Below are positions 35,842 through 63,118 of a stretch of 64,000 bases of DNA, one piece after another. The notes beneath the pieces were generated by a model. The model did not search any database and was not told the origin of the DNA. It saw only the letters and a program-made list of their open reading frames with translations. Where the stretch lies: positions 15,751,207 through 15,815,206 of the forward strand of contig CM055111.1 in the NCBI GenBank assembly GCA_029204225.1, in the 5' to 3' direction. The translations under genes were made by a program, and so were the position numbers. Positions within the stretch are counted from its first letter, which is position 1; each line of letters begins with the position of its first letter. This stretch comes from Diphasiastrum complanatum (taxonomy: Eukaryota; Streptophyta; Lycopodiopsida; Lycopodiales; Lycopodiaceae).

Positions 35842-36440
35842 TGCTATCAGAGCTTGTGTTTCAGGTTATGAAGGAGGAAATCAGATCTATCAATGATTTG
35901 GTGAAGATATCAAGTCTAGAGCATCCTAGAGAGGATTCTACACCAAAATCGGATTTTTTGCTTTTGTAGATTGGATCTTTTGTAGATCAAAACACTAAAT
36001 AGGTCAATATACTTGTTCAATTCCATTTTTTGAGTTCACATGCTGGATTTGGCCGATTTTTGGATCATTGGTTCAGTCTAAGTGGTGGCTTATAGATTGC
36101 ATATCAAATTTTCAGCATTTGCATGTAGATTTGGAATAGTCAATTTTTTGTGATTTTGTCAAAACCCTAATTTTGATTGGATCTCTAGATAGTGAGGTTG
36201 CTGGACTTCATTTGAGTGTGTTTCAATCTTAGGAAGTGGCAAAAGTCATTAGATTGAGGATAGATCATAGGTTGATCAAGATTCCATGATTCTATGTGTG
36301 ATTTGCTTGGATAAGTGCTAGAAGAGAATTTGTGAGATAGTTTCAAATCTTGGTGATTTCTTTTGAAAGCATTTGTTGTTGTTCAAAGGAGTGCTTTGTG
36401 CATTGAAACAGGTTGAAAGAGAAGATCAGGTCATTGCTAC

Positions 36441-37256
36441 ATGGCAACCTCAATTGGAGTCATGTTGGAAGCCAATGATAGGCTTACCTCAAGTAACTAT
36501 TCATTATGGAAAGTGAGGATGGAGTCACTTCTTGAGATGAATGATGTTTTGGATATTGTTGTAGGTTTGGAGGAGAGACCAGCAACACAACAAGATCAGT
36601 TGAGGTATGACAAGAGGGCCAAGAAGGCTCTACACATGATAAAGATGAATGTTACCAATGAACTTCTCAAGGAAGTTGGTAAGTGCACATCATCTTTGGA
36701 AGCTTGGAATTCATTGAAGAAGCTTTATGAATCCAAGTCTACTTCTAGAGTGTTGAATCTAAGAAGGCAAATCTTTTCTTGTTTGCAAAAGAATGAAGAA
36801 ATTTTAAGTACTTTTGTTTTGAGAATGAAAGCATTGAATGATGAGCTAGCTTGCATAGATGAAAGCATTAAGGAAGGAGAGCTTATTCAAGTGATTCTTA
36901 ATGGCTTGTTGGATGCTCATGCTAACATTGTTCAAAGTATTGCTATTCAAAAGACTTTGCCAAGTTTGATGGATCTTCAAGATATCTTGATCAATGAGGA
37001 ATATAGGCTTCAAGCAAGAGGTGGACCTACATCGACACTTCAAGAGGATGCTATGTTCACAAAGGGCAAATTCAAGGGCAAAACCAAAAGCAAGTGGTCT
37101 AAAGGGCAAGATCAAGTGGATGCTTCTTCAAGTGGCAAAAAGAAGGATAGATCAAAGCTCAAGTGCTTCTATTGTGGCATCAAAGGACACTTTGCAAGTG
37201 AGTGCTACAAGAAGAAGAGAGATCATGGAGACAAACAAGGTAAATCTTACTCTTGA
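36441..37256 (+). CDS. element B gag
   Basis: 272 codons from ATG 36,441 to TGA 37,254-37,256. The gag domain reads NDRLTSSNYSLWKVRMESLL and KKALHMIKMNVTNELLKEVG (residues 12-75), then IDESIKEGELIQVILNGL (about 135-155). A single CCHC knuckle, CFYCGIKGHFASEC, is near residue 242. This is normal architecture for copia gag, which assembles the particle and binds RNA. The frame is uninterrupted, and the protease frame follows after a shift at about 37,240, so gag may be the only intact product of this copy. A deliberate frameshift is possible but not shown. Confidence 0.85.
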   Translation: MATSIGVMLEANDRLTSSNYSLWKVRMESLLEMNDVLDIVVGLEERPATQQDQLRYDKRAKKALHMIKMNVTNELLKEVGKCTSSLEAWNSLKKLYESKSTSRVLNLRRQIFSCLQKNEEILSTFVLRMKALNDELACIDESIKEGELIQVILNGLLDAHANIVQSIAIQKTLPSLMDLQDILINEEYRLQARGGPTSTLQEDAMFTKGKFKGKTKSKWSKGQDQVDASSSGKKKDRSKLKCFYCGIKGHFASECYKKKRDHGDKQGKSYS

Positions 37257-37840
37257 TGAGGATGGTTTGGATGTGCAAGATGCAAATGATGATGCTTTTG
37301 TGATGTCTTTATGTATGCTTGCTAATGATGGAGATCTAGATCCTTGGTGGATTGATAGTGGAGCAAGTTCACACATGACCTTTCACAAAGAGTACTTCAC
37401 TTCTTTGTTGGCATATGGAGATGACAAGAGGGTGATCTACACGGGCAATGATGGTGAGTGTGCAATCAAAGGGATTGGCACAATTCCTATTTCTCTCTCT
37501 ACAAATAGGAATGTTCGTTTGGAGGATGTCTTGTTTATTCCATCTATTACCAAGAATTTGTTTAGTGTGAGTCAAATGCTAAGTAAGGGCCTCAAGGTGG
37601 AGTTTGATGGAGATGCTTGTTTGATCAAAAGGAAGGATGTCTTGATTGGAAAAGGTTAAAGACAAGGGAAGTTGTTCAAACTTGATGCTTGTGTTATTGC
37701 TAACCAAGTTGGATGTGTTGCAAGGGAGCAAATTTCTAATCAAGAGGTTTGGCACAAAAGGATGGGACACCTCAACTTCAAGTCATTGGAGGTATGGCAA
37801 GGAAGAAGGTTGTGATTGGTCTTCCAAGTTTCTTAAGTAA
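37257..37840 (+). pseudogene. element B protease and GAG-pre-integrase
   Basis: In the frame after gag, WWIDSGASSHMTFHKEYF (about 37,346-37,400) carries the DSG protease triad, followed by VLFIPSITKNLFSVSQMLSK. The frame stops at 37,657-37,659. The integrase zinc region is then read in two other frames: EVWHKRMGHLNFKSL (about 37,742-37,790) and HVCESCVLSKSH (about 37,849-37,884). At least two frameshifts separate protease from integrase. Confidence 0.8.
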
Positions 37841-37884
37841 TGACAAGCATGTTTGTGAGTCTTGTGTTTTGTCTAAGTCACATA

Positions 37885-39054
37885 GACTACCTTATAAGAT
37901 CTATTTCTAGATCTGCAAAGCCTTTTCAACTTGTACATTCGGATATTCATGGATTTACTACAATTAGCAATAGTGGAGCTAAGATGTATGAAACATTCAT
38001 TGATGATTTTAGTAGATTTTGTTGGATCTATCTACTAAAGAGCAAGGATGAAGTGTATGATGTCTTTGTCAAGTTCAAGAATGCAAGGGAGAACCAATTG
38101 TCCACAAAGATCAAGTGCTTGAGAGGTGACAATGGTGGTGAGTACATATCTAACAAGTTCAAGGCCTTTTGTGATGAGCATGGGATCAAGAGGGAGTATA
38201 CAACATCAAGAACCCCACAACAAAATGGAGTGGCTGAAAGGAAGAATAGAACTTTATGTGAAAGTGCTAAAGCTACGAGGTTAAGTGCTAATCTTGACAA
38301 ACCATTTTGGGATCAAGCTTTGTTGTGTGCCAATTTTTTGTGCAATAGGTGGCCGAGTGCTATTTTGGATGGAAGGACACCTTTTGAGATGCAATTCAAG
38401 AGGAGGCTGAGTGTCAACTTTCTAAGAACCTTTGGATGCACATGCTATGTCAACATTACTCTTGATGATAGGACCAAGGAGGATCCATCTTCAAGAAGAG
38501 GTATTTTTGTTGGATATAGTGAGGTGAGTAAAGCCTACAAGGTTTACATTCCTTCTACCAACAAAGTGATTGTTGGTAGAGATGTCATTTTTTATGAGGG
38601 AAACATTCCAAAGGTGTCTTCAAGTATGATTGATGGTAAAGTTGATGGTTCTAACATTTTTGATGTTGATGAGAAGGATCCTACTTTGGATGGTGGTGAT
38701 GATGGACCTTCATCAAGTCAAAAGCCAAGGAGAACATCAAGAGAAAGACAAGTACCTTCAAGGCTCACATATGATCAAAAGGGTAAGAAAGTAGTTTCTG
38801 GAAATTATGTTGCTTTCCTAACCTCTTTGGATGAGCCTACAAGTGTAGATCAAGCAAGGAAAGAAGTGGAGTGGATCCAACCAATGGATCTTGAGTATCA
38901 ATCTCTTATGAAGATTGGAACATCTTTTGGAAGATCTTCTTATGTACATGGAGCTATGCAAGTGGATAGATGTTATCTTGCTGTAAAATCAAGTAATGGA
39001 TCAGGAAAACAAAGTTTGTTCAATGACTTTGATGGTCAAGTTGAAGATCAATAA
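37885..39054 (+). CDS. element B integrase
   Basis: The open frame runs to TAA 39,052-39,054. The core shows all three acidic residues: HSDIHG (about 37,939), RGDNGGEY (38,125-38,148) and QQNGVAERKN (38,218-38,247). The integrase tail TFGCTCYVNITLDDRTKED and GIFVGYSEVSKAYKVY follows (38,430-38,550), then an acidic/Ser linker and the very start of RT (EWIQPMDLEYQSLMK, 38,869-38,913). RT homology stops there. The product would insert cDNA in the genome. No initiation codon is expected, because the family is translated as a polyprotein. Confidence 0.82.
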   Translation, partial: DYLIRSISRSAKPFQLVHSDIHGFTTISNSGAKMYETFIDDFSRFCWIYLLKSKDEVYDVFVKFKNARENQLSTKIKCLRGDNGGEYISNKFKAFCDEHGIKREYTTSRTPQQNGVAERKNRTLCESAKATRLSANLDKPFWDQALLCANFLCNRWPSAILDGRTPFEMQFKRRLSVNFLRTFGCTCYVNITLDDRTKEDPSSRRGIFVGYSEVSKAYKVYIPSTNKVIVGRDVIFYEGNIPKVSSSMIDGKVDGSNIFDVDEKDPTLDGGDDGPSSSQKPRRTSRERQVPSRLTYDQKGKKVVSGNYVAFLTSLDEPTSVDQARKEVEWIQPMDLEYQSLMKIGTSFGRSSYVHGAMQVDRCYLAVKSSNGSGKQSLFNDFDGQVEDQ

Positions 39055-39147
39055 ATTGATCTCAAAGCGCTTCAACTAGTCAAAAGAGAAGTTGGCAATT
39101 TGGAGCTAGTCAAGAGCATCAAAGGAGAGGTAATTGGCAAGGGTGTT

Positions 39148-39744
39148 ATGGATCTGTTTTTGCAGCATATTGAAGACTCAAGTAAGGTCAAGGGAGCAGC
39201 AAGGAAGTGTTGTTCAAGTTTACTTTACTTGTTCTATCCATTGTTTGAGCAATTTCATGTGGATGTGTTCAAATTGTCAAGATATGGTAAAACTAGCTAC
39301 ATTGGTGAGCATTGTTTTGATGTTGGATTTGTACTAGCATTCTTGGCTGATTTTGCTGATGGAAATGAAGCTATTGAAGGTTCATTATGTCACTCATCCA
39401 TGGCTAAGTTCTCAAGTGTTGAGCTACTTGGTGCCAATACTTGGAGATTGTCAATTTTTGGTGAATTCATGGTCATTTTCTTGTGTCAAGTAGATCTTGA
39501 AGATGGACTAGTGCAAACTACTTGGTTTATGGAGTCATGTGGTGCTAGATTTGCATCATTAATGTACTCACCTACTCATGGATTTCCAAGGTTTGATGGT
39601 TTCTTGTGGCAAGATGGAGATGGAGGCTCATTCATGGAGTATCATGGTGGATACATGGCAACAAAGGACAAAGGAGGAGACATGCAAGCAAAAGTTGATC
39701 ACTCACATTTATTGTTTGTTTGCTGTATTTTTTCAGAGAGTTGA
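39148..39744 (+). CDS. unknown 198-residue ORF in place of reverse transcriptase
   Basis: From ATG 39,148 to TGA 39,742-39,744. None of the RT landmarks (KWVYK, DVKTAFL, YGLKQAPR, YVDD) occurs in any frame between 38,920 and 39,990, whereas both flanks are ordinary copia pol. The protein is rich in Phe, Ser and Cys and carries several hydrophobic stretches (VGFVLAFLADFADG, EFMVIFLCQVD) and a Gly-rich end (LWQDGDGGSFMEYHGGYMA). I do not recognise a family. About 240 bases of AT-rich sequence follow before RNase H homology resumes. It may be captured host sequence or family-specific cargo; no function is claimed. Confidence 0.5.
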   Translation: MDLFLQHIEDSSKVKGAARKCCSSLLYLFYPLFEQFHVDVFKLSRYGKTSYIGEHCFDVGFVLAFLADFADGNEAIEGSLCHSSMAKFSSVELLGANTWRLSIFGEFMVIFLCQVDLEDGLVQTTWFMESCGARFASLMYSPTHGFPRFDGFLWQDGDGGSFMEYHGGYMATKDKGGDMQAKVDHSHLLFVCCIFSES

Positions 39745-39989
39745 AAGCTGGAAGCATGGTGGAATCATTTCATTTACATTCTATTTGATTCTTCTTGTTC
39801 TAGTCACATTTTTACATGTAAAATTGATGTAAGAAATAGTGAAGCATCCCAAGTGGACACTATTCTCTATATCAATTATGGTTGTTTCTATTTTGAGCAT
39901 TACATGATCATTGAAAGGAGATCTATTCTTAGGAAGAAGATCATTATTATGATGGATCAAAGTTCTATTGGCAAAAACTATGCTAGGAG

Positions 39990-40510
39990 CATTGGAAGCT
40001 AGGAAAGCGAGTTTTGAGGTACATCATTGGAACTCGAGATTTTGGCATATTGTATGAGGGATCATCACCTAATCTTTTTGGATTTTCAGATTTGGACTAT
40101 GCTGAGATGTAATGGATAGGAAATCCATTAGTTCTTATTGTATTTTCATAGGTGATGGAGCTATATCATGGATGTCAAAGAAACAAGCCACTATCTCATT
40201 GTCATCTAGTGAGGCCGAGTACAAAGCTCTTACACATTGCACAAAGGAGATGGTATGGATCAAGAGGATGATCAAGGATCTTCACTTGCTGGATTTTTCA
40301 GAGAGCCCAATCATCTTTTGTGACAATCAATCAGCCCAAAGAATGGCATCCAATCCTATCTTTCATGCTAGGAGCAAGCATATTGAGATACAATATCATT
40401 TTGTGAGGGAGCGAGTCATTGCAAAGGAGGTGGAGCTTCAACATGTGTCTTCAAGGGAATATGTAGCTGATATCTTTACCAAATCATTGGGACTTGTTCA
40501 TGAAGCATAG
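39990..40510 (+). pseudogene. element B RNase H
   Basis: LRYIIGTRDFGILYEG and FSDLDYAEM (39,999-40,110), then a frame change at about 40,108 into MDRKSISSYCIFIGDGAISW, SKKQATISLSSSEAEYKAL, FCDNQSAQRMASNPIFHARS, KHIEIQYHFVRERV and YVADIFTKSL, ending at TAG 40,508-40,510. This is the complete copia RNase H, which degrades the RNA strand during reverse transcription. The polypurine tract GAAGAGGGAG (40,554-40,563) and LTR3 follow. Confidence 0.85.
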
Positions 40511-41578: not shown

Positions 41579-43728
41579 AAGTTTTTACCTATGCATCTTG
41601 TGATGCTAAGAAAACGCATCTTGGTTTTCAAGGGGGCTTGATGGACCAACTATTCATAGAATTGCTATTGATAACTCTACACATTCATACATAGATTCAC
41701 CTAGAATAGAGTCCCAAGCATGGACCAACTATTCATAGAATTGTTATTGATAACTCTACACATGCATACAATATCTCATACCTTGTCTAAACTCCATTTA
41801 GTGTGTTATGGGCCTCACAAGGATATTAGTTACTTTCGGGTCACATCCAGTATGACATGGCATAACTAACAGCTTGATTTACTGGAGTACCGTGTATCCA
41901 AGACTAGGAGTATACTGAATCCTACTTACTCGCCATGGACATAACATTCTTCCCTCGTTAACTGCTTCTATCCTTAGAAGCTCTCTAAACAGCAAAGATT
42001 TAGAGCTCTCTAATTATCCTTAGTCAAACTTTCACATCAAACAAGTACTCAGAGATAATCCTATTTCCCAAGTGATAATCTCTGCACTGGAGTACAACTC
42101 GGGTTTGAAAAGTACACTAAGCGATAAATTTTTCATCTGGGTTACATTCACCACAAGTTAGTAACATCACCTTCATGTAAAATTACATGAAACACTGGGT
42201 GAAATAACCTAACTTAAGAGATTAAAGTTTAAAAAATAATAAAATAATTATATTTATAGTTTGAAATTATCCACAACTCTGATAGATAATTTATTAATCT
42301 TTCAAGTACAAATATCCTTAGAATTCAAATTCTAAGATATGATATTTCATTCAATTAGAATCTATAGGAGAATCATTAAGGTATAGAATGATTAAAACTC
42401 AACTCTAAGTATCACATATACTCTTTTGAGTTACATGCTCTCGTTTCTAGCACCAAATACAAGAAAATAACATTCATTCATCTTAATAGATTTGACTTTT
42501 TTTTTTGTTAAGCAACTAGCCAGTTGTAGTCAACAACTCTATCCATACACCCCCACTGTGATTTGTGGTCATATTTTAACAGCAAGCACCATTTCGATTT
42601 AATGAATTCAGAAATGCTTTATCTTGAAGTGTTTATGTGTTTTAAAAATAATTCAATTTTGTTTGTTTTTCTTTCAACTTGAGCACATCTCAAGTTTTCA
42701 ATTGCACCATTGAATAATTTTTAGCTAGTTTTATATTGCAATTTACAATGAATGAAGTTTTTGGTGGATGTTATTATGTTCTCTTTTCTAAAATCGCACT
42801 AGATAAATTTCTCTTTTATATATGGACATTGTGAAATTTTTAAGAAATTGATGCATTTGCCATATGTAATTGCTATATGTTTTACTAAAATAGTAATCAT
42901 ATTGTAACAACAAATCATGTTTATATCACGAGTCAAAGTATAATAAAAATCGTGTACACACATCTTTACCCTCAAGTAAAGAAACCAACAATTATAATTG
43001 ACTACTTGATTTCATTTAATTATGTTACAAACTTTTATTGAGTTGCAATATGTTCACAATAGGTTTTGAGGTGCATGTGATAACCTTCATGATTATTTGG
43101 ATTTAATTTCTCATTTGATTGTGATTGTACAATTATAAATGTATAATTTTAATAGCTAGAACATAAACAAAAGACAAAATTGTTAATGTATGTGCAAGGT
43201 ATTGGCTTTTGTTGTGATTGTATAATTATGAATGTATATTATTAATAGTTGAAACACAAACAAAAAACAAAATTGATAACATATGTGCAATGTATTTGGA
43301 TTTTGTTGTAACTAACGCATGATTTACACAGTACTTGATAGTAGTTAAACATGTACAAATAAAAATATGCACAAGGCTCTATATTGTGAACCACCACTGC
43401 CATATTTCATTGGGTATAACATATTTGAGAGTGCAACATGAACAATGACTACTACAAGCATAACCTATGAATTTTTAATCTATGTAATTATCAATGAACA
43501 AGCCTTAAGTATGATTTTATAATATAAAAATAATCAATTCAATTTACATCCAATTTTGAAATTCAAGAAAATCAAACATAAAACTTGATATCCAATAAAT
43601 AATTAAAAACCATCATATTGATAGAAATAAGATACACACATGAACATTAAGCTTATGAAAGATAAAATTTAAAATATATCATTTGAATAATGAATGTACA
43701 AAATGGATTGTATGAGATTTGAACATTT
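41579..43728. other. AT-rich non-coding DNA with two tandem duplications
   Basis: ATGGACCAACTATTCATAG occurs at 41,641 and 41,720 (offset 79). A 93-bp unit (GTGATTGTAYAATTATRAAT) occurs at 43,121 and 43,214. A weak inverted pair, AACTTGAG/CTCAAGTT, is at about 42,678-42,698. No ORF is supported. This lies 3' of the methyltransferase-phosphatase locus. Confidence 0.5.
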
Positions 43729-44667
43729 TTAAAGTCTTTTGCATTTTTCCAATGGGCGCAAATATCTCTTTGCAGCAGTTCCAGTCGTGTAAGGTTTACA
43801 ATAGCCAAGCTCTATTGCTTTTAGGCTAGCTTCCATGTCACTCATACTTTGTATTGGTTGCATGTCCTCTAATATTTTCAATTGACTTGATGTCAACTTT
43901 ACAGGTGGATCATGTCTTCGTCTTTTTTGTTGCTCTCCTTTGAGTACCTGTGAATTGGTAGCCTCAGATGAAACCCGAGTACTTGTACTACTAGGAAACA
44001 TCTTCATAACAGATTGAAAATGTCCATACAAAGGATGACCTTCAGTCACTGGCAGTTGTCCATATCTTGTTGCTTATATGACTGGCTGAACATCAAGAAC
44101 TTGTGTTAATTTGAGAAGATACGAAAAAAGCTTGTTGTTGAGTACATCATCTTCAACTTCTCCTACAAATGGATTGGGAAATATGCAATTTCCGGGATTG
44201 TTAAGACATCCTTTGTATGGACTATCATCTATTAATATAGTAGTTCTTTCATCACAAAAACCTGTGAAATTTGCCCACACCCGAGACAGTGGCTTGAACA
44301 TTGATTCCACATTTGGCTTGTCCGGTCTATATAAACAAGGTGACTATTGCTTGAAACATCTTTCTTGTCTCCAAGTCATAAAAAATGGAAATTGACTTTT
44401 GGCCACATGCTCCATCAATTGAATCCTTGGTAAAATGTTCTTCTCTTTTGCACATGACCACAACCCAATATTAAAATGATTGGAAATTGCACTCAAGAAG
44501 TCAATGCAACCCATGCGCAGTATGATCCTTTCCCACCCAATGTTATAAATCTCTTGGTTGGTTGGACCATTTCCAACAAACTTGCACATCAATAGTCCAT
44601 TGAGATATAGTATCAATGTATGATAGTGCAACTTTTCACCTATGCTTTCACATGACAATTTTTGCAA
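43729..44667 (-). pseudogene. FCP1/NIF-type HAD phosphatase module
   Basis: The minus strand reads HTLILYLNGLLMCKF (about 44,570-44,620), RMGCIDFLSAISNHFNIGLW (about 44,455-44,515) and FFMTWRQERCF. After one TAG come YRPDKPNVESMFKPLSRVW (about 44,274-44,330), TTILIDDSPYKGCLNNPGN (about 44,187-44,243) and FSYLLKL. This is the plant FCP1-like pattern: LDLNG box, GLWSS, W-R-QC, DKP-FKEL-VW, LIDDSPYK. The nucleophile Asp of the first box is Tyr (LYLNG), so activity is lost. A basic tail (QQKRRRHDPPVKLT) ends at TGA 43,729-43,731. FCP1 relatives dephosphorylate proteins such as the RNA polymerase II tail. Confidence 0.75.
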
Positions 44668-45205
44668 AAAAGTTTGTCATTATTTATAAAACTTGAGAAC
44701 TGTATGTTTTTTTCTATTTTATCAAGTTCCACCTCTTGTAAAGTGATCTCTTGTCACAACGTTCACAAAGGAGACTGTTGAAATAAGTCCTACTAAAAAA
44801 ATAGCTGTAATTATTTATTAAGTTTTTACTAATTTTGATTGATAATATAGTGGATATTGAGTATATGAGCATAAGCACATGATTTTAATTTTGGCAGACA
44901 AAAATAAAAACCATGATATAATTCAAAATGAAATCACTAAAAAAATGATATCAAGTGATAAGATTTAATTCATGTACATAGAGGAGTTTTAAATATCTAC
45001 AATTAACTAATTGTTTGATTCCTACCATGGCCATTTGTACACCACAAAACAGCTATTATAAACTATGAAATTATAGGTATCCAAACTTGAGAAATCTATG
45101 TCAATCACCTGTAGAAAGATGACTGTCCTATTCAAGTACATCAATGTGAATATCAAAAGGGGGTTCACCACTCTCATCAATTTCTTTTTGTTTCTCTTTT
45201 TCTTC

Positions 45206-46449
45206 TCATATCACCCCTGCTTCTTGTACTATAGAGGCAAGTTCTTCAACATTTGTAATAGGCATAGGAATATGACTTTCTTCTCTTGAACTTGGAACCT
45301 CTAACAATCTTGCAAATTTTGCCACTGACGGATTTGTGTCCATGAGATTTGAACATGTTGCCCCCAAAGCTTTTGCTTCCATATCAGTCAATACAATCAC
45401 AACTCCTTTTCGTTCCATTAGTAGCCCTTCTTTCAAAGCAACTCCTCCACAGAAAAGATCTACTACAAATTGATCTTCTCTACAAAATGCTTTTATGAGA
45501 TCTTGAATAAAGATAGAATCCTTAAGATTTTTCACTAAATGAATTCCAACCATTTCATATGGTTGGTCTTCGATGTCGTCCTCTTCATCCGAAGTTATCG
45601 TTGAAGTGTCTCATGAAATGTCAACTGTCTCTGTTTTGCTTAGAATTAAGTTGTTGTAGGTCACAAATCTGGAATCTTCACTTAAAAAGATTACCACAAC
45701 TGCTGCTGTGTAGGATTTTGTTATAATTCCTTGTTTTTCTGATTTTGATATATAAACTCCCACCTCATAATGGAATTTATATTCTAGTTCTTTCAATGCC
45801 ATAACTAGACTTGAAATATATATAAAATCCATAAACGATACCATGACTAGTTTATTAGTACCATTAAAAGTCTGGACATGAGAGATTGAAGCTTTGAAAT
45901 AGTCCTTTGTCCATACTTCCAAAATCTCATTATGTAGTTGTGTATCTAGAATGATCAATCCTTAACTATAGGACCATCAACCTTTTTTGAGAATTCTGCA
46001 TATCTTTCAAATAAAAGGCCAGTTGTACCAATTCTCCAAGGAGTTTGATTTACTTCCAAATCTAAGCCTTTGGACATCAAATACAAGCGGTGAACATTGT
46101 TTTTTACTATTGCCGACAATGGAGGCGTGACTTTTGAACAATTGAATGCATCTTTTAACCATTCCTTCGACCATGTATACATCTTTGCATATTCTTCATC
46201 TTCAATGCGATACACGGCACTCAAATGGCTCCAAGTAGATTTGGCTAGTGTGAATCCTTGAAGGTAGGATATGATTGTGTCTTCCAATACTTTATCGCCT
46301 TTTATTTTTTTACATGCATCGTCCATATCTACCTTATCTTTGACACCTTTGCCTCTCTTTATTAGGACTTTTTTGGCCATGACTTCAGCTTGTAAACCTC
46401 GCACCTGATTTGGATCTAGTCCGTCAATACATCTAAACAATGAGCACAT
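45206..46449 (-). pseudogene. N4/N6-type DNA methyltransferase module
   Basis: After the intron (frame 46,416-46,682) a shift at about 46,440 leads into CIDGLDPNQVRGLQ and an alpha-rich segment. A further shift at about 45,957 leads into LIILDTQLHNEILEVW, the position of the catalytic (D/N/S)PP(Y/F) motif IV, here DTQL. Later IKAFCREDQFVVDLFCGGVA (about 45,430-45,490) fits motif I, the S-adenosylmethionine-binding DxFCGxG loop. Motif IV preceding motif I is the beta-class order of DNA methylases. A TGA at 45,611-45,613 precedes the acidic SDEEDDIED stretch. Family role: transfer of methyl to adenine N6 or cytosine N4. With DTQL and several breaks this copy should be inactive. Confidence 0.6.
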
Positions 46450-46747
46450 AGATTTACTATTTCTGGCACTTGTTTTACCAGTCCAAGTTTATCCTTTCCT
46501 TTTGTGACTTTTTTTTCTACAAAAGGCTTGAGATTTCCTCTAGTGTTTGGCAATTGTCCAGCAACATATATCTCCATTATTTTTATCCAATTGTCAAAAA
46601 CATCATTGTCACAAGTGACCATGTGAATGTCGTGCTTTTGAAAACCTTTTTGCAGTGTACACTCGGCAGTCTCCACAAAATCCTACAAGTGAGAAAAAAT
46701 TAATGCATTTACACAATTATTGAAAGTTTCAAAACACAAAGTAGTAA

Positions 46748-48112
46748 TTAGTAATTTGACAACAATGCAATTACCTCCCATGATTTATTTGATGTCTCAG
46801 TTCTTTTGACTCTAGCTTTAGGCTTTGCAGGCCTGTTGAAAGCTATCCATTGACCTCTTGCTTGTTTCATTTGATCAATGAATGGCTCCTTTTGCATGAC
46901 CTTTGCCACCATCAAGTTTGCATCCTTTGATATTAAAACTGAATCTTTGCTCGGACAATTAAGTATCATTCTAGACCTTCTATATCTATAAATTTTTGCT
47001 GCATCTTTCATTTTTTGATTTGACAAGCCCTGCATCAATTTTGCAGCTTCTATCGAGTGTTGACCTTATATGACCCAATAACTGACCTTGTCTATTTGAC
47101 TAAAAATTAAGTTTTGTAATGGTTCATTTGTCTTTGGATCAGATGACATTACATCTGCAATAACAACACAAGGTTGAGTATGTGCACAAAATTCTTTTAT
47201 CAGTCGCAATACATGGTCCTTTACCAATCCTCGATACACTCTGTGACTAGGAGCTTGAAAACATCTTGTCACATCAATGTTATAGGATGTGTCCATTCCA
47301 AATGGATAATATCCCTTCCATTTATATAGGAGTTGCAAGCCCTGCTCATTGTCAACACTCAACAAGTATTCCATTTTTGAAACCATAGCATCTGCTTGTT
47401 GATTTAAGAGCATTATTTCCATAGATTTGGCACTATTTTTTCCTGTTTGCTTAGATGTGGAACCTTGTTTTCTATTATTTCTCTTTTCAGTAGTTTTTTT
47501 TTCTTGATTTTCCATAAGTTTTCTTGTTTTGCTTGTTTCTCCCTTTTGAACATCCGAACTCTTTTTGAAAAAAGATGTGACATTTGTCAATTCTCCTTTT
47601 ACAATTAAAAATCCTTCAATAATTTGCATCATGTCTGTGATGCCAGCATCCTCAAGGTTATCAAAACTCATTAAGTTCCACCCAAGATCCTTCATGGAGC
47701 CACATTTGTCATCCTTGCTTGATTGCATTTCTTTGAGACTAAATCCTTCAAAAGGTAGACTGATCAGCATAATTTTTTCATCCTTGGAACTCTCTACAAC
47801 CACCTCAAGACATGGTGTTGCATATTTTCCTTCACTCTCTTTAACATTCCAAACTACTTCCATATCGTCATACTTTTGATCTTTTGAACAGACATATAGA
47901 TGTACATCTTTCATATGTATTCCTGATGTGTCGTATGTTTCCATATACCAATTAATTGGTTTTTTTTCTTCTCCAATTAAATCAACCAAGTCGAGCTCAC
48001 CTGTTATGATCAGACTTGGTTGAGTGTACCTGGCCTTCTTACGCATAGGTGGTTCCATGATAGTATCAAGTGAAAAAACTTGCTTGTCCTCAGTCATTGT
48101 ACCTACATGCAA
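46748..48112 (-). pseudogene. N-terminal region with ParB/sulfiredoxin-like module
   Basis: Open for 348 residues from ATG 48,110-48,112 to a TAA at 47,066-47,068, then in the same frame to the intron at 46,774. The first 190 residues (LIITGELDLVDLIGEEKKPI onward) match nothing I know. The linker KTTEKRNNRKQGSTSKQTGK is basic. Near the end, HVLRLIKEFCAHTQPCVVIA, then SYWVI-stop-GQHSIEAAKLM (about 47,030-47,090), resembles the ParB/Srx fold signature in which a strand is followed by GGQHxxxAA. The TAA falls where the first Gly would be. In bacteria and phages, ParB-like modules are often coupled to DNA methylases. The fold call rests on this short signature only. Confidence 0.45.
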
Positions 48113-48323
48113 AATTCACAATATCTGTGTATTTAACAAAGAGCATTTGAGAGCATGAAATTTGTAATTACAATAGCAGTATATAGTATCAATAAATGAC
48201 TTAAATTCATACACAAGTTATGCACAAAATTAAGTTCTAATATAGATTACACAATATGAAATTAGCAGAAAGCATTATGACCATTTGATGTAGGACTAGT
48301 AGTTTGCAGGGGAGCCAAGGTGT

Positions 48324-50947
48324 GCTCAATCTCAAGGTTGAGCAGACACTTATAAATACATTTAAAAAGTAGCATGATTAGAGTTTGAAGTAGTAGGTGC
48401 AACTATAGTCATCATAAAATGGTTTGGATAATCACATCGTGCTAGGATCCCCCTCGAACATATGCTTAAGCATAGATCATAAAATATGGGATTTTCAAAA
48501 AAATCATGGCCATCTGATGCTTGAAGACAATTTCATAGTGTTGACAAATCCTAATGTGAGTTGTGATAACAAGGCAATATATGCCCAAATTTACAACCAA
48601 CCATGGTCACCAAAAATGTGTTTTGAGAATAGCATTCTTTAAGTATGGAATTGTAAGAGCAGCAATTTATGGCATCAAGTAGTATGCAATTATATGTATG
48701 AAGAAATAGTGGCACTTTGATCATACTAAGTTCAAGCATATAGTAGATAATATTACCTTGTGATATTATCAAAAGCAGCAAAAAGTGGTATGCAATGCTT
48801 GCAAGCAACCTTGTGATCAAATAGAAGGCTGATAGTGAGATTTTGGAATGGTTGTGCGGTAATAATATATTTTTTTAAATAGTAGGATCAAATCTTCTAG
48901 ATTATCACACATTGATGGTAGAGTTTTGCTCAAACTTTAGTTCGAGCATAGAATCTATACTATGGAAAGCACAATGAACATTTGATATTTGAAGATAATT
49001 TTATCAAGTTGACAAAACATAATGTGAGGTTTATTTACAAGACAACGTATCTTGCAAGTCATAACTCATGGTCAAGTTCAACAACTTGATTTGTGAAGAG
49101 CATTTTTAGATTATTGTATCTGAAGTTCAATACTAGTTTCCAATGACAACAAGTGGGACAAAATCACATGAATGACCAATAGTGATAGAAGAGATAAAGC
49201 CAAGCATGGAAACTCAAAAATGTGTTTTGAGAAGAGTATTTTTGTAGAGTAAGGAGGTGTATTTGTAGTAGTAGCATATTGCATTAAAACTTAGCATAAA
49301 ATCATATGCATGACTAGTCAGTGATAGAAGAGCTTTGCTCAAACTTTAGTTTGAGCATAAAGTCTTCAATACGGAATTAGTACAAACTACAATGACAACA
49401 CAATCTATGGAGGCATTATTATAAAATTAGTAGGTTATATTGGAGACTATGCTTATAAGAAGAAGTGTGCTTGAACCCGTGGTTGAGCAAGGAGACTCAA
49501 ATTTTTATTCTGTAAATAAATTATGGTGCTTGTAGGTGCAGTAATAGCAGTTAGAATACAAATTATTACATGTTGACAAAGTGGCTTTTTGCTCGAACTG
49601 AAGTTTGAGCATCAATTATACAATAAGGAATTAGGTGAAAGCACTTTCATCAATATACATTTGGATTACGATATTGGCACATCGTATTGCGAACTATCAA
49701 TAGACAACAATACATGTTTGATCTAACATTTGTATTTCATGATTAAAGAGTTTAGAGTTTGCAAGTGCAATGCTAGTACATACTATTAAGAAGTGGCATG
49801 AAATCATATGGATGATCACATAACCACAACTTGAGTTAGAACATAGAGTGTATAATGTGGTGTTACTAATATTTGTATTTCATGATTATAAATTTGAGAG
49901 TCTAGAGTTTGTAGGCGCAATAGTTGTACGTAGTGTTAAGAAGTGGCATGAAAGCATATGGATGATCATACAACCACATGGGAGCTTTGCTAGAACTTAA
50001 GTTCGAGCATAGAGCATATTACTAACATTTGTATTTAATGATTAGAAATTTGAGAGTCTAGAGTTTGTAGGCACAATAGTAGTACATGCTGTTAAAAAGT
50101 TGCATGGAATCTTGGATGACCACACAACCACATGGAAGCTTTGCTCGAACTTAAGTTCAAGCATAGAGTGTATAACATGGTCTTAGCATAAAGAACTTTG
50201 AGCATATGGTTTGTGTAGATGCAATATTATAAAATTGATAGATTATAGTGGAGACTATGCTTATAAGAAGAAGTGTGCTCGAACCCATGGTTTAGCAAGG
50301 AGACTCAAATTTGTGTTTTGTAAATCATATTTTAAAAATATAATGTTTGTAGGTGCAGTAATAGCAGTTAGAATACCTTGAACTGAAGTTCGAGCATCAA
50401 CTATCCAATAAGGAATTAGGTAAAAGCACTATGATCATATGATATTTGGATTACGGTTTGCCACATCGTAATGCAAACTATCAATAGACAACAATACGTG
50501 TTTGAGCTAACATTTGTGTTTCATGATTAGAAATTTGAGAGTCTAAAGTTTGTAAGTGCAATGCTAGTACATACTATTAAGAAGTGGCATGAAGTCATAT
50601 GGATGATCACATAACCACATGGGAGCATTGCTCGAACTTAAGTTCGAGCATAGAGTGTATAATGTGGTGTTACTAACATTTTGTATTTCATGATTAGAAT
50701 TTGAAAGTCTAGAGTTTGTAGGTGCAATAGTAGTACATACTGTTAAAAAGTGGCATGAAATTATATGGATGACCACGCAACCACATGGGAGCTTTGCTTG
50801 AACTTAAGTTCGAGCATAAAGTGTATAATGTGGTGCTACATAAGGCACTTTGAGCATATGGTATTAGGAGGCAACATTATAGAGGTGTCACATCTTTAAT
50901 AGGAGCTATGCTTACAAGACAACAAGTGCTCAAACACAAGGTCGATC
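48324..50947. repeat. array of 20-bp palindromes GCTCGAACTTAAGTTCGAGC
   Basis: A perfect copy is at 50,630-50,649. Near-perfect or degenerate copies start at 48,324, 48,928, 49,337, 49,469, 49,591, 49,989, 50,143, 50,277, 50,376, 50,796 and 50,928. They are embedded in a degenerate tandem repeat of about 150-166 bp (GTAGGYGCAATAGTWGTACA at 49,911, 50,067 and 50,718) with a longer 791-bp period (AAGTGCAATGCTAGTACATA at 49,763 and 50,554). The array begins about 200 bases upstream of the minus-strand methyltransferase-phosphatase locus and is non-coding. Confidence 0.85.
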
Positions 50948-51690
50948 ATGAAAACTAAAAAACATGTTCTTTCTAGGAGTATTTTGAGAGTATGAAAATT
51001 GTAGGTGTAATATTAATATATAGCGCCTAGAAGTAGCATGAAATCATGTCAATGATCACATACCTTTGAGCATGAATGCAATTCACCACAATTTTTTTTT
51101 GTCCAATAACTTTCTTATCGTGGCTACTTGTATCTATAGAACACTTTCAAATAGTACCTGTAGATTCGAGCCAGTTTCCATTCCAATTCTTACAAATTGT
51201 ACCATTCAGTCTAGTGTGGCTGTTTACTTCAACAACTATTACAAAATTTTCATATTGTATTCATTTTATCAACACATTTACATTTCATTCAAGGTTAATC
51301 GTACATTTGATCAATACTTGAGATGTTTTAGGGTTAGCTTTATTATGGACTTCAATTAGCAAAACCACATTGTAGAGGGCGGCGGGCCTATCGATGACAA
51401 CGCTTGGAAACTCAAGGTTTAGGGTTTTAGTACTCTTTCATTGATAGAATCTTGTGATGGGAATCCTACCAATGTAGAATCAACTACTAAGCAACTACTA
51501 AGCAAAATTGGGAGGTTGAAAATCACAACTACACCTTTTACCGGAATGGCACAAAATTTCCTTCATGCAAGCGAGAAAGACATGAATCGGACACCAGAAG
51601 CAACTGCTTCAACCAAAATTGTGCACTTAATTTCATGGAATATAAACTAAGCAAATAAATCATCAATAAGCAAGTAAATGATCAATAGGT
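50948..51690. other. non-coding, nothing recognised
   Basis: AT-rich sequence after the palindrome array. Overlapping open frames at 51,066-51,359 have biased composition and no family motif. Confidence 0.45.
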
Positions 51691-54402: not shown

Positions 54403-54455
54403 CAACATGTTATCACTACTGATATCCCAGCAGTGATTCTTCCAGACAACATAAT

Positions 54456-55340
54456 ATGGCTACGACAATCCAGACTAGAGTAGCAATCAGTCTCGATGGC
54501 ACAAATTATAGAATCTGGAAATTCAAAATCAAAACACTCCTGAAGGGCGAAGGCATCTGGCTAGTGACCGAGCTCTCAGAGGTGCAGCCTCCAGAGGGAG
54601 ACCCAAGGAGAGCTGAATGGATCAGAAAGGATGAGAGCACAATGGCAATCATCGTTTCGTCCATAAATGAAAATCTACTCATGCAGATTGAAGACTGCGA
54701 AAGTAACCATGCAGCATGGGAAAGATTAAAGCAGAAGTATGAAGTGAGGATTGCAGCTTCAGTCATGCACCATCACAATCAGCTGCAATCAATATGGTGG
54801 GATGGCAACCAGTTGGATCAGCACGTTCAGAAGATCAGAACGATCTTCGCTCAACTCGCTGCATCAAGACAGGAGCACCAAGTCCTAGCACCATAGCAGC
54901 TGGTGTACTTCATGAAATCTCTACCAACGTCCTATCAGCCGTTAAGAATGCTCATACTGAGTTTTCCAGATATGACATTCGATAAAGTAGTTAGTCTTGT
55001 TGCTGATGAGAGACTGATGAGGGACGAAGGAGAGAGAAGTAGTGATCAAGAGAAGGCTCTCTTCACGAAAGGAAAGAAGAAGAACAAAAACAAGCCAATA
55101 TTCGAGAAGATGAAGTCTTCAAATCAACAATCTTCTTCCTGCGATCACTGCCACAAACCAGGCCATACGGCCAGCAAATGTTGGTTCAATCCAGCAATAC
55201 CTTGCATGCACTGCAAGAAGAAAGGACATTCTCCATACAACTGCAGATTCAACCCAAAAAGGAAAAACAAAGCTGAAAAGACAAACGTTGCAGAGTCATC
55301 TAAAAATTCAGAAAGAGGTGACAAAGCTTTCATGATACTC
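54456..55340 (+). pseudogene. element C gag
   Basis: From ATG 54,456: SLDGTNYRIWKFKIKTLLKG and SSINENLLMQIEDCESNHAA (gag domain), an amber stop at 54,894-54,896 where copy D has Gln, then in the same frame SLPTSYQPLRMLIL and KVVSLVADERLMRDE. Two knuckles follow: C-DH-C-HKPG-H-TASK-C and C-MH-C-KKKG-H-SPYN-C (about 55,138-55,245). Double-knuckle gag is a trait shared with D and E. It would package the element RNA. Confidence 0.88.
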
Positions 55341-55359
55341 GACAAAGCTTCGACAAGCT

Positions 55360-55720
55360 ACTTCAAACATGACTACGATGTGTTCATTGATTTAGGAGCA
55401 ACATCTCACATAACCTGCAACAAGAAGGTCTTGATCAACTTTTGCGAACTCGAAAACGACAGAGCGGTGACTCTAGGCGATGGAAGCAGACGCGATGTCA
55501 AGGGCATCAGCTCTCTACAGCTACGAACACTGTCAGGCCAAGCAGAGATGCCAGGAGCACTCTATGTGCCCTCACTCATAAAAGATCTGCTATATGTCTC
55601 CAAGATGGCAGGTCTAGGCATTCGAGTTTTGTTCGACGACAACACTTGCTGTATGATCGAGAAGAAGACAAACAAGTTGCTGACGGTCGGATGCAGAGAA
55701 GGAAACCTCTACCAGGCCAA
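55360..55720 (+). pseudogene. element C protease
   Basis: The active-site box reads DLGATSHIT (55,389 onward) where copy D has DSGATSHIT, a single C-to-T change (TCA to TTA) that destroys the Asp-Ser-Gly triad. LGDGSRRDVKG and GALYVPSLIKDLLYVSKM follow. The reading frame is open through this domain. Confidence 0.85.
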
Positions 55721-56876
55721 AATAATCAGCAACTTTGATAGCATATCAAGTTCTTCAAAAAAACAAGATCAGCTCTGGCATAGGAGAATTTATCATCTGA
55801 ATATGTGGAGCCTTTATGACATGAGCACAAAGGACATTGTCACAGTTCTCAAAATTTCAAGGCCCGAGGCTGAGTTCTACGAAGCTTGTCAGAAAGGCAA
55901 GCAACATCGGAGTCCATTCACACATGAGGGAAGAAGAGCCAAGGAAGTTCTTGAACTTGTCCAGTCTTATGTGTGTGGACCGATGAAAACTAATTCGCTC
56001 TCAGGTTTGAGATATTTTCTAATGTTCATAGATGATTACAGTCAAATGACCATGATCTACTACTTGAAGAAGAAATCCGAAGTATTTGATTCTTTCAAGA
56101 AGTTCGTGGTATTCGCAGAGCGACGCACCTTGAAAAAGATACAGATCCTTAGATCTGACAACGGAGGTGAATACAAAAGCACAGAATTCTCAAGATTCTA
56201 CGAAGAACAGGGGATCGAACACCAATTCACTCTTGCATACACAGTAGAATACAACGGTGTGGCAGAAAGTAAAAATAGAATGCCAGTCGAAGGAGCTAGA
56301 TGTACGATAGCACAGGCTCAATTGCCAGGCCAATTCTAGGCCGAGGCAATAGCTGCAGCTGTACACCTACAAAACAGATCTACAATGACAATGATGGAGA
56401 ACAAAACACCATATGAAATGTGGATAGGCAGAAAGCATGATCTGTTATACACACGAGTGTTTGGATGTGTAGCATACAAGCACATTCGAAAGGAAAAGAG
56501 AAGTAAGCTCGATGACAAATCCGAACAAACAATCATGGTCGGCTACTTGAACAGAACACATGTGTACAGACTCTACGATCCAACCATGAAGAAGGTTGTT
56601 TCGAACAGAGATGTAAAATTCGACGAGTCCACATTCCCTGGACTGAAAGACGAAAGAGGCCATGAGATCTTCACACTGCTGCCTATTCAAGAGGGAGATC
56701 GAGGACAAACATCAAATCAAAATGCAGGACCCCAGACTCTAGAGCAGCAGGAAATAGAGGATCGACCCCATGAACAGGAAATGTTCAAGAAACGCCGAAA
56801 CGAACCTCGAAGGTCAACAAGACAAAGAAGACCTCCAGACCACTATTCTGACAATCTTCAATGGAGAGAAGACACA
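55721..56876 (+). pseudogene. element C integrase
   Basis: LWHRRIYHLNMWSLY and YEACQKGK form the HHCC zinc region (55,770-55,905). The core starts VQSYVCGPMKT, where the first catalytic Asp is Tyr (TAT 55,968-55,970). The second is kept in RSDNGGEY (about 56,150) and the Glu in NGVAESKN (about 56,256-56,279). TAG at 56,337-56,339 replaces Trp in QFWAEA (Trp in copy D). The tail VFGCVAYKHIRKEKRSKLDD and VGYLNRTHVYRLYDP runs to TAG 56,877-56,879. Confidence 0.88.
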
Positions 56877-56879
56877 TAG

Positions 56880-58493
56880 TTTGAGTACTGCAACTTCACA
56901 TAAGAGCCAACAACATACCAAGAAACTATCCAGAGTCCAGAGGGAGAATTCTGGAAACAGGCAATGTCAGAAGAGATTGAGTCGATGAGGCAAAACGAGA
57001 CATGGACATTAGAGCCACTGCCAGAAAACAGAAAATTAGTTGACTGCAAGTGGGTGTACAAGAAAAAGCTGAAATCAGATGGCACCAGTGGCCGCTACAA
57101 AGCAAGGCTTGTCACGAAGGGCTACACGCAGAGATATGGTGTCGACTATTTTGACACATATTTGCCCATGGTCAAGATGACAAGCATAAGGCTGCTCCTT
57201 GCATACGCCACATAGTACAATCTGGAAATTCACCAAATTGACGTGAAAACAGCCTTTCTCCATGGAGATCTAGAGGAGGAAATTTTCATGAAGCAACCTG
57301 AAGGCTATGAAGACCCCGACAACAAAAAATATGTATGTCGATTGTAGAGATGCATCTACGGTCTAAAACATGCATCACGAGCCTGGTACAAAAAGCTTAA
57401 TGGTCTTCTGAAGTCTCTAGACTTCAATCCTACTCAACCAGACTGTAATGTCTACATCAAAAGAGTAGGAAAGGATTTTGTGATACTGACCATTTTCGTG
57501 GATGATTTGCTGATGATAGGAAATTTCTTAATGTTGATCAAAGACACGAAGAGTCAGATTTCTAAAAACTACAAAATCACAGATCTTGGAGAAGCAATAA
57601 AATGCCTAGGGCTGCAGATCAGAAGAGATCGAACAAATGGCAAAATGCACTTGATCAGTCAGAATACGCCAGAAAAGTGCTGAAGCAATACCACATGATG
57701 GACTGTGAAGGAAAAGCCACACCAATGATAGCTGGAGCCAAGCTCATGAAACAGGATTGCCCAAAAATAGAAGAGAAAGAATAGAAGATGGCAAGTATAC
57801 CCTACCAAAACTTAATTGGTAGTCGGATGTACTTAACAATTTGTACCAGGCCCGATCTAGCCTTCTCTGTTTATGCATTGAGCCAATTCTGTTCTAATCC
57901 TAGTCTAGCACATTGGAAAATGGCCAAACGAATCCTACAGTATCTGAAGGGTACCCAGAATGTTGGATTAACCTACAGAGCTAGAAACGAAGAGAAAGGA
58001 TTCGAGCTGCATCACTACAGTGATGCGGGCTGGGCGAGCTGCAAAGGTGATAGCAAAGCCATTACTAGAGAATGTACAATAGCATGTGGAGCTGCAATCA
58101 ACTGGATATGCAAAAATCAGAATCTGGTAGCTCAATCCTCTTGTGAGACTGAGTATGTCGCAGCCTCAAAAGTGCCGAATGAGGAAGTGCGGCTACAAAT
58201 GATGTTGGAGGCAATCGGGATACCACAAGAAGGGCCAAGCACGATGATGATGGACTCCCAGAGTGTCATCTATTTGTCCTAGGATCCTGTCTTTCATTCA
58301 AAGACGAAGCACATTCCTCTGAAGTACCATCACATTCGAGATTTGATCTCAAAAGGAGAGCTCCAGGTCCAGTTCATAAAATCAGAAAGTATGATTGCAG
58401 ATCTCCTCACGAAACCACTCGACAAGCCACTCTTTACCAAGCAAAGAGAGGCAATTGGATTGAATGAACAAAGTTGCAAGGTTCAAGTGGGAG
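56880..58493 (+). pseudogene. element C reverse transcriptase and RNase H
   Basis: [71 protein letters not shown] and an intact FVDD (57,495-57,506). Breaks are TAA 56,901, TAG 57,213, TAG 57,345, a one-base deletion at about 57,649, TAG 57,782 and TAG 58,280. RNase H: HHYSDAGWASCKGDSKAIT, SSCETEYVAASK, MMMDSQSVIYLS, then HIPLKYHHIRDLISKGELQV and MIADLLTKPLDKPLF. The polypurine tract CAAGTGGGAG precedes the 3' LTR. Compared with copy D this copy keeps RT whole. Confidence 0.9.
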
Positions 58494-59292
58494 TGTCAGA
58501 AATGGTGAACTCCTGCAACTTTGTCAAAGCACGAAAAAGACATGAAGGTCGAACAAGAATGATTCGCGACATTCAACATGTCTTTGACTCAAAGCACGAA
58601 CAATTCGAGAATCATTCGCGAATCGCAAACACATCTCTAGGATCACAAATCCCAAAAGGGACGCAAAATGAAAACTACAAAAAAGAAATGAAAAGAACAA
58701 AAGCAAACGGGAGATTATGAATCAAACGAAGATAAATCTTTCGCTCTATCAGCTGGCAGCTCAACAGGCCTCACGCCTAGCTGAAACGAGTAGCAACGAT
58801 GAAAACTAACTAACTAGTTGATTAGCGTTAAATAGTCATGTGATTCGACGTTTAGCTATCTTGAAAACTCCACAGAGTGGAGGTATAAACGATCCTCTCT
58901 GGATCATATCAAAATGATGAGAATACAGAGATCTGTAAGAGACAGAGAGAGACGTAGCGAATAGAGTAAGAAAGTAAAGACACCATAGTTGTGCATGAAA
59001 GTCTGCCAACGAGTAGAACATAGCGTAAGAGCATAGTGTCAATCCGCCAATGAGCAAGACACTGACGATCTCGCTCCAAAACCAAACTGACAATATAGTC
59101 GCTCTATTTTTGTGTATCTCTTTGTCTTGTGCTGTGTGTCTTGATTGCTAGAATAAAATATGTTCTGTGATGCGTGGTCGAGTGTCTGGGATTCTGTAAG
59201 GGCTTCTCCACGAAAAGATAATTCAATGAAAGAAAATTGTTTGCAAAAAGAGAGGGAGAAGATGAACACGAAATAGTCTCGCTTATGCGACA
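58494..59292 (+). mobile_element. element C 3' LTR
   Basis: 799 bp, TGTCAG to GCGACA; partner of 53,596-54,390, followed by target duplication CTTGC. Confidence 0.92.
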
Positions 59293-60458: not shown

Positions 60459-61149
60459 ATTGTCAAACAACCCTATAAAGGCCTTTAAATTTAACAAAAT
60501 GCAATAACGGATGGGAAGTACAAGAGTAGATATATATACTCCATGCTCGCTTGCACTCCACTCGCCACCTCAATAAGTGCACAGTGACTCAACAACATGA
60601 CAACCAAAATCAAATGTCAGTTCATAGGCCTATTCACTCTCTGTAAGTTGTAAGTTTCATGATTCTATAGTTGTATGAGTCTATACCGCATATGGGGTTG
60701 AATCAACCCTTGGTACTGTATGGTTAACTGGGGGTTTAATTAGAGACATGGCAATTACTATCTCCAGCATTTTTTGGAAACATGTATCGAATGATGAAAC
60801 ACGTTCAAAATGGTAAGTACGAAACGACCCCGTTCTGAAATGTCAAATGCACATTCGAAACAACTATACAAATTTATGAAATTTTTTTGTATTTCAAGCA
60901 CGAGCTATGGATTATATCTTATGTACTATAGTTAAGATGAATTGTGATTCATGTAGATTGTAAATTATAATATGTATTTCCATTTTCTAGCTCTAGTAAG
61001 TTGTAATCGATCAAATCAACTACGTGTGAACTTTGAAACACCCAACATTGTGAACTTTCAACTTAGTCTTGCGTAAAATATAGTAGTATGGACATTGGAG
61101 ATAGAAATTGGATGTATCTATTTATTGCTAGTCTTTTTTTGACATTTCT
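59721..61149. other. non-coding spacer
   Basis: AT-rich; no gene recognised apart from the microsatellite at 60.4 kb. It ends where element A2 pol begins, without an LTR or target duplication. Confidence 0.45.
60379..60457. repeat. compound (GT)n(GA)n microsatellite
   Basis: GT dinucleotides followed by GA with a few GC interruptions, the third compound GT/GA tract in the window. Confidence 0.95.
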
Positions 61150-63118
61150 AAATCCAAAAAAACTCATAAAAATACATCCACAAGGAAGAAGGAAGATCCT
61201 AGTGCATGCAAAGGGATCATGGTTGGATACTCATCCACCAAGAAAGAAGGCCTATAGAGTCTTTATACTCTCTACTTCTCAAGTTATTGAAAGTAGAGAT
61301 GTTGTCTTTCATGAAGATCAACACTCATCATTTGAAGAGGCCGAGATCAAGAAATCTATGGATGCATCATCAATTATTGATTTTAAAGACAATCATGATG
61401 TGATGGGGTCGAGATTTGAAGAAGACTCTCCTCGGATTTTTTCACCAAGAAGATCCATGAGAGATAGATCCGAGCCTAAGAGGCTCTCATATGTTGACAA
61501 AGGCAAACAAGTGGATCTTGATTCCACTGATTATGTTTTTCATGTCTCTCATGAAGAGCCAAAGAATGTACAAGAGGCACTCAATACCAAGGAGTGGTAT
61601 GATGCCATGAAGCAAGAGTATGATGCATTGATCACCAACAATACTTGGGAGCTTGTGGATCCTCCATCCAACAAGCATGTGATTGGTTGCAAGTGGGTAT
61701 TTCGGATCAAGTTCAATCATGATGGCACCATCAACAAGCATAAAGCAATACTATGTGCTAAAGGATTTGCTCAAATCCATGGTCTTGATTATGAGGAGAC
61801 CTTTGCACCTGTTGCAAAGATGGTGACAATAAGAATTCTTATTTCTCTTGCTTGTTTTTTCAAGTGGAAGGTGTTCCAATTAGATGTATCCAATGCTTTT
61901 CTAAATGGTTATCTTGAGGAGGAGATCTATATGGAACAACCTCAAGGATTCATCGAGGATGAGTCCAAAGTGTGCTTGCTCTTCAAAAGTCTTTATGGAC
62001 TCAAGCAAGCACCAAGATCATGGTATTCAAGACTTAACTCTTTTCTTATCTCACTAGGATTTACCCTTAGTGACTATGATCCTTCCATGTATCTAAAGTT
62101 TGTTGATAGCAATATTGTCATTCTTCTAATTTATGTTGATGACATTATTCTTTGTGGAAGTTGTATCAAGCTAGTTGATGAAACCAAGCTAGCACTTGGA
62201 TGTGAGTTTAGAATGCAAGATCTAGGCTCAGAGATACATTACATCCTAGGCCTAGACATTGATTTTTATGAAAATCATGTCTTTATATGCCAATCTAGAT
62301 ATGCTCACTCTATGTTGAAAAAATTCCATATGAAAAATTCTAAGAGCATAGATACTCCAATGGAGCAAATTGTAAAAGATCCTAATAAAGGTGATGAAAG
62401 ATCCTTTGAGGACATCACGCTTTTTAGGAGTCTTGTAGGCTCCTTGATTTGGCTTACCATTACTAGGCCCGATCTTAGTTTTTGTGTGCACAAATTGAGT
62501 CAATTTATGCAAGATCCTAAGATCCATCATTGGAAGATGGCCAAGAGGATTCTAAGATATGTATCTTCATCTTGTGATTATGGTCTACTCTATAAAAGTG
62601 AAGATCTATCCATTATTGGCTACTCGGATTCAGACTTTGCAAGTGACAAGATGGATCGAAAGTCTATTAGTGCATACACTATCTTTCTTGGAGGCAATCT
62701 AATATCTTGGCTTTCCAAAAAGCAAGATACTATATCTCTCTCTTCATGTGAGGCCGAGTAAAAAGCACTCACTACAACTACCAAAGAAGTGCTTTGGATC
62801 AAGAGGTTATTAATGGAACTAAAGTGTATCAAGGAGGATGATCTACCAATGATCAAGTGTGATAATATCTCGGCCCAAGCTCTTGCCAATAATCCCATAT
62901 TTCATGCAAGAAGCAAGCACATAGAAGTGGCACACCATTTTGTGAGAGAAAAGCTTATTGGAGGAGAAATCTATTTGGAGCATGTCAACTCGTCCTCTTG
63001 TATTGCCGATCTACTCACCAAGCCTTTGGGCAAAAGTGCTTTCATCAAGCATAGATCTAATCTTGGAGTTATATCAAGATCAATGCTCAAATCTTCATAG
63101 ATAATTTTTTAGGAGGAG
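61150..63118 (+). pseudogene. element A2 pol: integrase tail, RT and RNase H
   Basis: Begins inside the integrase tail (GIMVGYSSTKK, about 61,212-61,244), with a one-base shift at about 61,243 into KAYRVFILSTSQVIESRDVV. RT follows: NNTWELVDPPSNKHVIGCKW, VFQLDVSNAFLNGYLEEEIY, SLYGLKQAPRSWYSRL and intact YVDD at 62,132-62,143. RNase H follows: YSDSDFASDKMDRKSISAYT, SKKQDTISLSSCEAE, a TAA at 62,759-62,761 where the family has a Tyr codon, then KCDNISAQALANNPIFHARS, KHIEVAHHFVREKL and CIADLLTKPLG. Apart from that one stop the RT-RNase H frame is open for about 600 codons. The polypurine tract AGGAGGAG (63,111-63,118) follows. Confidence 0.9.

Follow-up and report, generated by a model that had tools for sequence, protein, structure and literature searches.

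A decayed gene joining a degenerate methylase-like block to an FCP1-type domain in a repeated, probably mobile unit of Diphasiastrum complanatum

The window analysed here is a 64,000-nucleotide stretch of contig CM055111.1 (positions 15,751,207 to 15,815,206; assembly GCA_029204225.1) from the lycopod Diphasiastrum complanatum. On its minus strand, positions 43729-48112 form a single decayed gene that is interrupted by four stops and two frameshifts and contains an in-frame GT-AG intron; this copy is a relic, a dead gene. In relatives the gene has a predicted product of about 1,250 amino acids, comprising an N-terminal block, a block marked by the string GQHSIEAAKLM (the GQHS block), a middle block, a degenerate permuted methylase-like block and a C-terminal FCP1/NIF domain, and it is multicopy both in D. 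complanatum and in a fern. We regard this anatomy as very likely to be correct. Our favoured interpretation, to which we give a probability of roughly 0.55, is that the window gene is one dead member of a family carried in plant repeat units that are dispersed and probably transposable, for which the protein would act as an accessory factor. A preliminary description made from the DNA letters had named the motif strings, intron, stops, shifts and common strand, all of which are present, and had treated the blocks as one unit, which is borne out by fern gene models together with 19 of 20 paralogous loci.

When read through with X at its stops, the FCP1 block matches 23 database proteins at E ≤ 0.01. 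In one of these, P0013 from the fern Adiantum nelumboides, the stretch upstream of FCP1 matches the VVDLFCGG piece of the window (phmmer E 3e-9 in a search among six sequences). Searching with that stretch returned 13 predicted proteins (10 carry the name A. nelumboides), and in 6 of the 13 the upstream block occurs together with PF03031. The longest, P0028, is among these six; it is a predicted A. nelumboides protein of 1,246 amino acids in a cluster of 20 members, and it is collinear with the window blocks, the window locus aligning with it throughout. In tblastn against the window P0028 matches the FCP1 block at E 1.7e-51, the N-terminal and GQHS blocks at E 1.9e-24 (P0028 residues 26-433) and the middle and methylase-like blocks at E 1.5e-15, with block order kept on a single strand; reversed and shuffled versions of P0028 give zero matches at E ≤ 1. 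The GQHS block plus the end of the N-terminal block is 30% identical to P0028, and identity between the fern and D. complanatum copies is 24-36%. Five of the seven proteins without FCP1 terminate in ...GV, as if they read into an intron donor. Because these proteins end there and the window reads ...AGVI followed by a stop, we place a putative second intron between the methylase-like and FCP1 blocks.

The same architecture recurs within the D. complanatum genome. A middle-block piece (45958-46488) gives 129 match rows in the 1.74-Gb assembly, and in 19 of 20 retrieved loci the detected blocks share one order and strand; in locus L294 the last two blocks lie on the opposite strand, and locus L295 contains an insertion. 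FCP1 was detected in 13 of these 20 loci (9.9 kb each). Counting the best 150 of 403 FCP1 candidates and omitting 19 second pieces of the middle block, at least 54 of 110 middle-block places have FCP1 no more than 12 kb downstream in the same orientation, against about 0.06 expected by chance; at 3 of 110, among the matches listed, it lies on the other side or strand. Some of the contigs counted are near-duplicates, such as L303 and L304 (99.8% identical). Co-occurrence of the two is thus frequent and far above chance, though perhaps not universal.

The N-terminal end retains an open frame of 349 amino acids (47066-48115), compared with longest frames of mean 104 and maximum 195 in 300 Markov shuffles of the region, and a single TAA separates it from the frame that begins GQHSIEAAKLM (46748-47065). 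The strings LIILDTQL and VVDLFCGG lie at 45958-45935 and 45466-45443, and the FCP1 block (44676-43729) remains in one frame throughout with two stops inside. Paralogues L292, L293, L295 and L296 have a gap of 91-92 nucleotides at the place of the GT-AG intron, and the open reading frames (ORFs) P0024 and P0025 seem to begin inside the intron at the matching place. L292, on the same chromosome, is 99.4% identical to the window copy and has identical stops; an already dead copy was therefore duplicated later. Values of dN/dS for the methylase-FCP1 gene span 0.34-1.33, and 26 of 29 non-independent comparisons fall at 0.50-0.91; between the window and L293 they are 0.91 for the methylase-like ORF and 0.57 for FCP1. 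These values fit copies that decay once inserted. No known domain was found in the N-terminal block or in the middle block.

The FCP1/NIF domain of the preliminary description is real: the read-through block matches Pfam PF03031 at 48.3 bits (E 1.2e-12; gathering score 21.8), with the unjoined pieces reaching 18.9 and 32 bits. P0001 is 36% identical at 92% coverage, and the nearest NCBIfam model, HAD_IIID1, gives E 1.6e-6, yet far under its cut-off. Like members of the NIF/FCP1-SCP family, the domain gives a whole-domain profile match and keeps the LIDDSPYK and WS motifs. Phosphatases of the NIF/FCP1 family have the catalytic motif DxDx(T/V). Here, unlike in that family, D-L-N replaces D-x-D, with DLNG in all 11 relatives covering the motif (12 aligned), and the domain is fused behind a methylase-like block within a repeated unit. 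The window itself reads LYLNG at this position and paralogue L307 reads ELN. To judge from these residues, phosphatase chemistry may have been changed or lost in the family and has very probably been lost in the window copy.

The block between the middle block and FCP1 resembles a DNA methylase in permuted, beta-class order, with LIILDTQL in the place of motif IV and VVDLFCGG in that of motif I. An hhalign comparison with YhdJ and relatives scores 42.2, which none of 500 shuffles reaches; with an enlarged family the score is 46.1, as high in 0 of 400 shuffles, with a null maximum of 25.9. The aligned core comprises 44 columns at motifs X-I and is collinear upon low-threshold realignment. When searched against PDB sequences, the family profile finds M.RsrI as its best match in identical register, at an E value of only 0.24; we take M.RsrI to be a beta-class DNA methylase. 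In a Foldseek search with a weak model, methyltransferases account, by our own count, for 36 of the best 50 of 70 rows at E ≤ 10, and a PADLOC search of the VVDLFCGG piece finds MTase_II (E 0.0085). The same piece scores 11.5 bits against PF01555, below the cut-off of 26.7 bits, and no Pfam model detects the permuted order. The catalytic DPPY is missing in 10 of 10 rows, in which motif IV reads DTTS, DTSL, DIST, DMTS, DAAH or DTQL; the motif I glycines are changed. These comparisons support a permuted beta-class methylase-like fold without its catalytic motif. The beta-class assignment of the preliminary description accordingly stands as regards permuted order, by profile-profile comparison, and fails as regards any Pfam model and the DPPY motif. 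Because DPPY is absent in all ten rows, the protein probably writes no base marks, and the suggestion that it writes base modification is probably wrong.

This block shares with beta-class N6/N4 methyltransferases (YhdJ, M.RsrI; PF01555) the permuted order, a helix containing K and, after it, VxDxFxxG, and a GxxLExL-like start ahead of the motif IV strand. It differs in having lost DPPY, in its altered motif I glycines, in falling under the Pfam cut-offs, and in being eukaryotic and joined to FCP1.

The ParB/Srx-like module that had been proposed upstream lacks statistical support. By eye the family pattern of the GQHS block is YxIISGQHSIxAARK, which we take to resemble the GxHR site of ParB/Srx. 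ParB families of Pfam are absent at E ≤ 10 in all seven members searched (four other families match, one member each, best E 0.046), PDB searches with the block give no ParB or Srx chain, and nothing was found with a YbdM-type set. An hhalign comparison with a methylase-type ParB set places GQHSI on the ParB GHTR site and scores 16.5, as high in 12 of 200 shuffles; with a canonical ParB set the score is 12.75, as high in 56 of 200, so neither is clearly above shuffles. From these data ParB identity of the block is unproved.

The gene lies within a repeated unit. The unit of the window is shared with L293 on another chromosome, and at the downstream end of each stand nine or ten consecutive A (near 42498 in the window). 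More generally, the repeat units of unlinked copies, which lie on several chromosomes, extend past the coding region, and in a distant subfamily, A, homology between such copies spans about 11 kb with gaps. Subfamily A units also contain an ORF with a DUF7869 domain about 2-5 kb upstream in the opposite direction, of 773 amino acids in L314 (E 3.1e-40). All five flanks retrieved from the 8 A loci (source included) match this ORF, four of them in the domain part as well. One of two subfamily B flanks matches it, almost without the domain part, and the single subfamily C flank retrieved does not; in L302 a match lies at the opposite end. In L293, which belongs to the subfamily of the window, the sole match is in the same direction and more than 10 kb upstream, and the window has no match. 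Seven comparisons of the DUF7869 ORF give dN/dS values of 0.49-2.14, in some cases from a very small number of synonymous changes. We infer that DUF7869 is a candidate transposase; no publication on it was found in the open-access literature. No convincing terminal inverted repeats (TIRs), looked for in seven joined loci, or target-site duplications (TSDs) were found, and element ends were located only in part. The gene probably sits in a mobile unit, in keeping with the earlier wording of 'perhaps mobile', given the presence of the repeated unit on several chromosomes.

Several further observations concern this unit and its relatives. The A-run that ends two unlinked copies of one subfamily is like a retroposed 3′ end, yet the intron is kept. 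Two diverged subfamilies (the window; L298-L307) have repeats about 120-170 nucleotides apart ahead of the gene, perhaps a regulatory or terminal region. The string 'QLDNCGSENKNRY...GHTHEDVDAMFSR' in the DUF7869 ORF resembles, in our view, a transposase core. In the fern model P0031, residues 1-350 contain by eye a hAT-like stretch (RWLSRGQVLERM) fused ahead of the gene. P0012, P0016 and P0018 are same-type FCP1 relatives whose N-termini differ and in which, by eye, no methylase-like block is seen.

Table 1. Features of the decayed gene and its repeat unit, in window positions unless a locus is named
Feature	Coordinates	Strand	Remarks
Repeat unit	42498..51026	-	Common with L293 on another chromosome, 93% identity
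Tandem-like repeats	48859..51068	.	Partly spaced by about 150-170 nt; ahead of the gene, within repeat unit
N-terminal block	47069..48097	-	343 aa counted from first ATG; runs on into GQHS block
GQHSIEAAKLM block	46775..47065	-	Set off from N-terminal block by one TAA
Intron, GT-AG	46683..46774	-	92 nt, frame-preserving
Middle block	45958..46682	-	Frameshift near 46440; helical by weak prediction
Methylase-like block, degenerate, permuted beta-class	45335..46044	-	Frameshift near 45960; TGA at 45611-45613
Putative second intron	44641..45217	-	Methylase-like block to FCP1 block
FCP1/NIF domain	44089..44619	-	TAG at 44344-44346; first active-site Asp replaced by Tyr
C-terminal tail behind FCP1	43729..44073	-	Alignable in relatives; preceded by TAA 44074-44076
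DUF7869 ORF	L314 1450-3768; L315 2-2980		Divergent from methylase-FCP1 gene

Elsewhere in the window there are by eye many Ty1/copia and some gypsy remnants (for example frames at 36417-40510, 54423-58720 and 61067-63100), and a 195-amino-acid frame at 28788-29375 looks by eye like a CACTA-type (TNP2) transposase. No tRNA and no Rfam match were found in positions 1-64000.

Instead of belonging to an element, the gene could be an ordinary host family that was segmentally duplicated and occasionally caught beside transposons, with the window holding one of many pseudogenes. The pair formed by the window copy and L292, with the same stops on one chromosome, is what passive duplication of a dead copy gives, TIRs and TSDs were not found, and the FCP1 relatives vary widely in length (175-492 amino acids). 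Such a family would have to accommodate unlinked copies on several chromosomes whose common unit runs several kilobases past the gene upstream, a second ORF of fixed opposite orientation in subfamily A, and a number of match rows that is high for a host gene; we consider it conceivable, if doubtful. A different alternative keeps the element and splits the gene, so that the methylase-like and FCP1 blocks are two adjacent genes fused merely by automatic gene prediction. We think this unlikely. Six of the 13 proteins run through both blocks, 48 of the 54 pairs in the genome are tightly spaced at 0.9-2.3 kb, and the ...GV ends of the proteins without FCP1 would be expected if they had been read into a GT donor. 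On the other side, PF03031 is missing from 7 of the 13 proteins, the named gene models P0027 and P0029 stop ahead of FCP1, about 0.5 kb without clear frame separates the blocks in the window, and 94 of 148 FCP1 places have no middle-block partner among the matches listed.

That the gene encodes a genuine methylase equipped with a ParB clamp, still writing or reading DNA methylation, is very improbable, with DPPY replaced in every row compared, the motif I glycines altered and ParB unsupported; in its favour are the permuted order and a report of phage fusions of ParB-CTPase folds to N6_N4 methylases (PMC12704722). As in those fusions, a methylase-like block is preceded in the gene by the pattern G-x-H-S-x-x-A-A-K; unlike them, the gene lacks a significant profile match and has an extra block between the two. 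The main text of that report mentions neither plant, moss, fern nor phosphatase. Broader parallels are reported for TET/JBP in fungal DNA transposons (PMC12730594) and bacterial-type N4-methylcytosine in bdelloid rotifers (PMC8885841), where a base-modification-type domain is likewise tied to mobile DNA or has been taken up by a eukaryote; here, by contrast, the catalytic motif is lost, FCP1 is joined and the linked gene is DUF7869. No description of the domain order was found in the open-access literature, judged by titles and the beginnings of abstracts.

How a dead methylase might serve an element can be suggested only tentatively, and the mechanism as a whole is rather improbable. In the DNA transposon family of a fern and D. 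complanatum that we favour, DUF7869 would serve as the transposase, and the methylase-like block would have lost methylation and retained binding to DNA or S-adenosylmethionine. The accessory protein, a dead methylase plus an FCP1-like carboxy-terminal-domain-phosphatase module, would be a DNA-targeting scaffold. It would bring this module, whose active site is itself altered, onto the DNA of the element or RNA polymerase II and act on the polymerase or on chromatin, and as an outcome the element would evade silencing or get transcribed and so be kept expressed. We know of no such function for an element-borne methylase. If the gene does belong to an element, it would be a concrete candidate for the influence of a plant transposon on polymerase II or chromatin, and an example of a DNA methylase fold retained after its chemistry was lost. 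It hints that plant transposons may have assembled an unusual protein that regulates transcription or chromatin.
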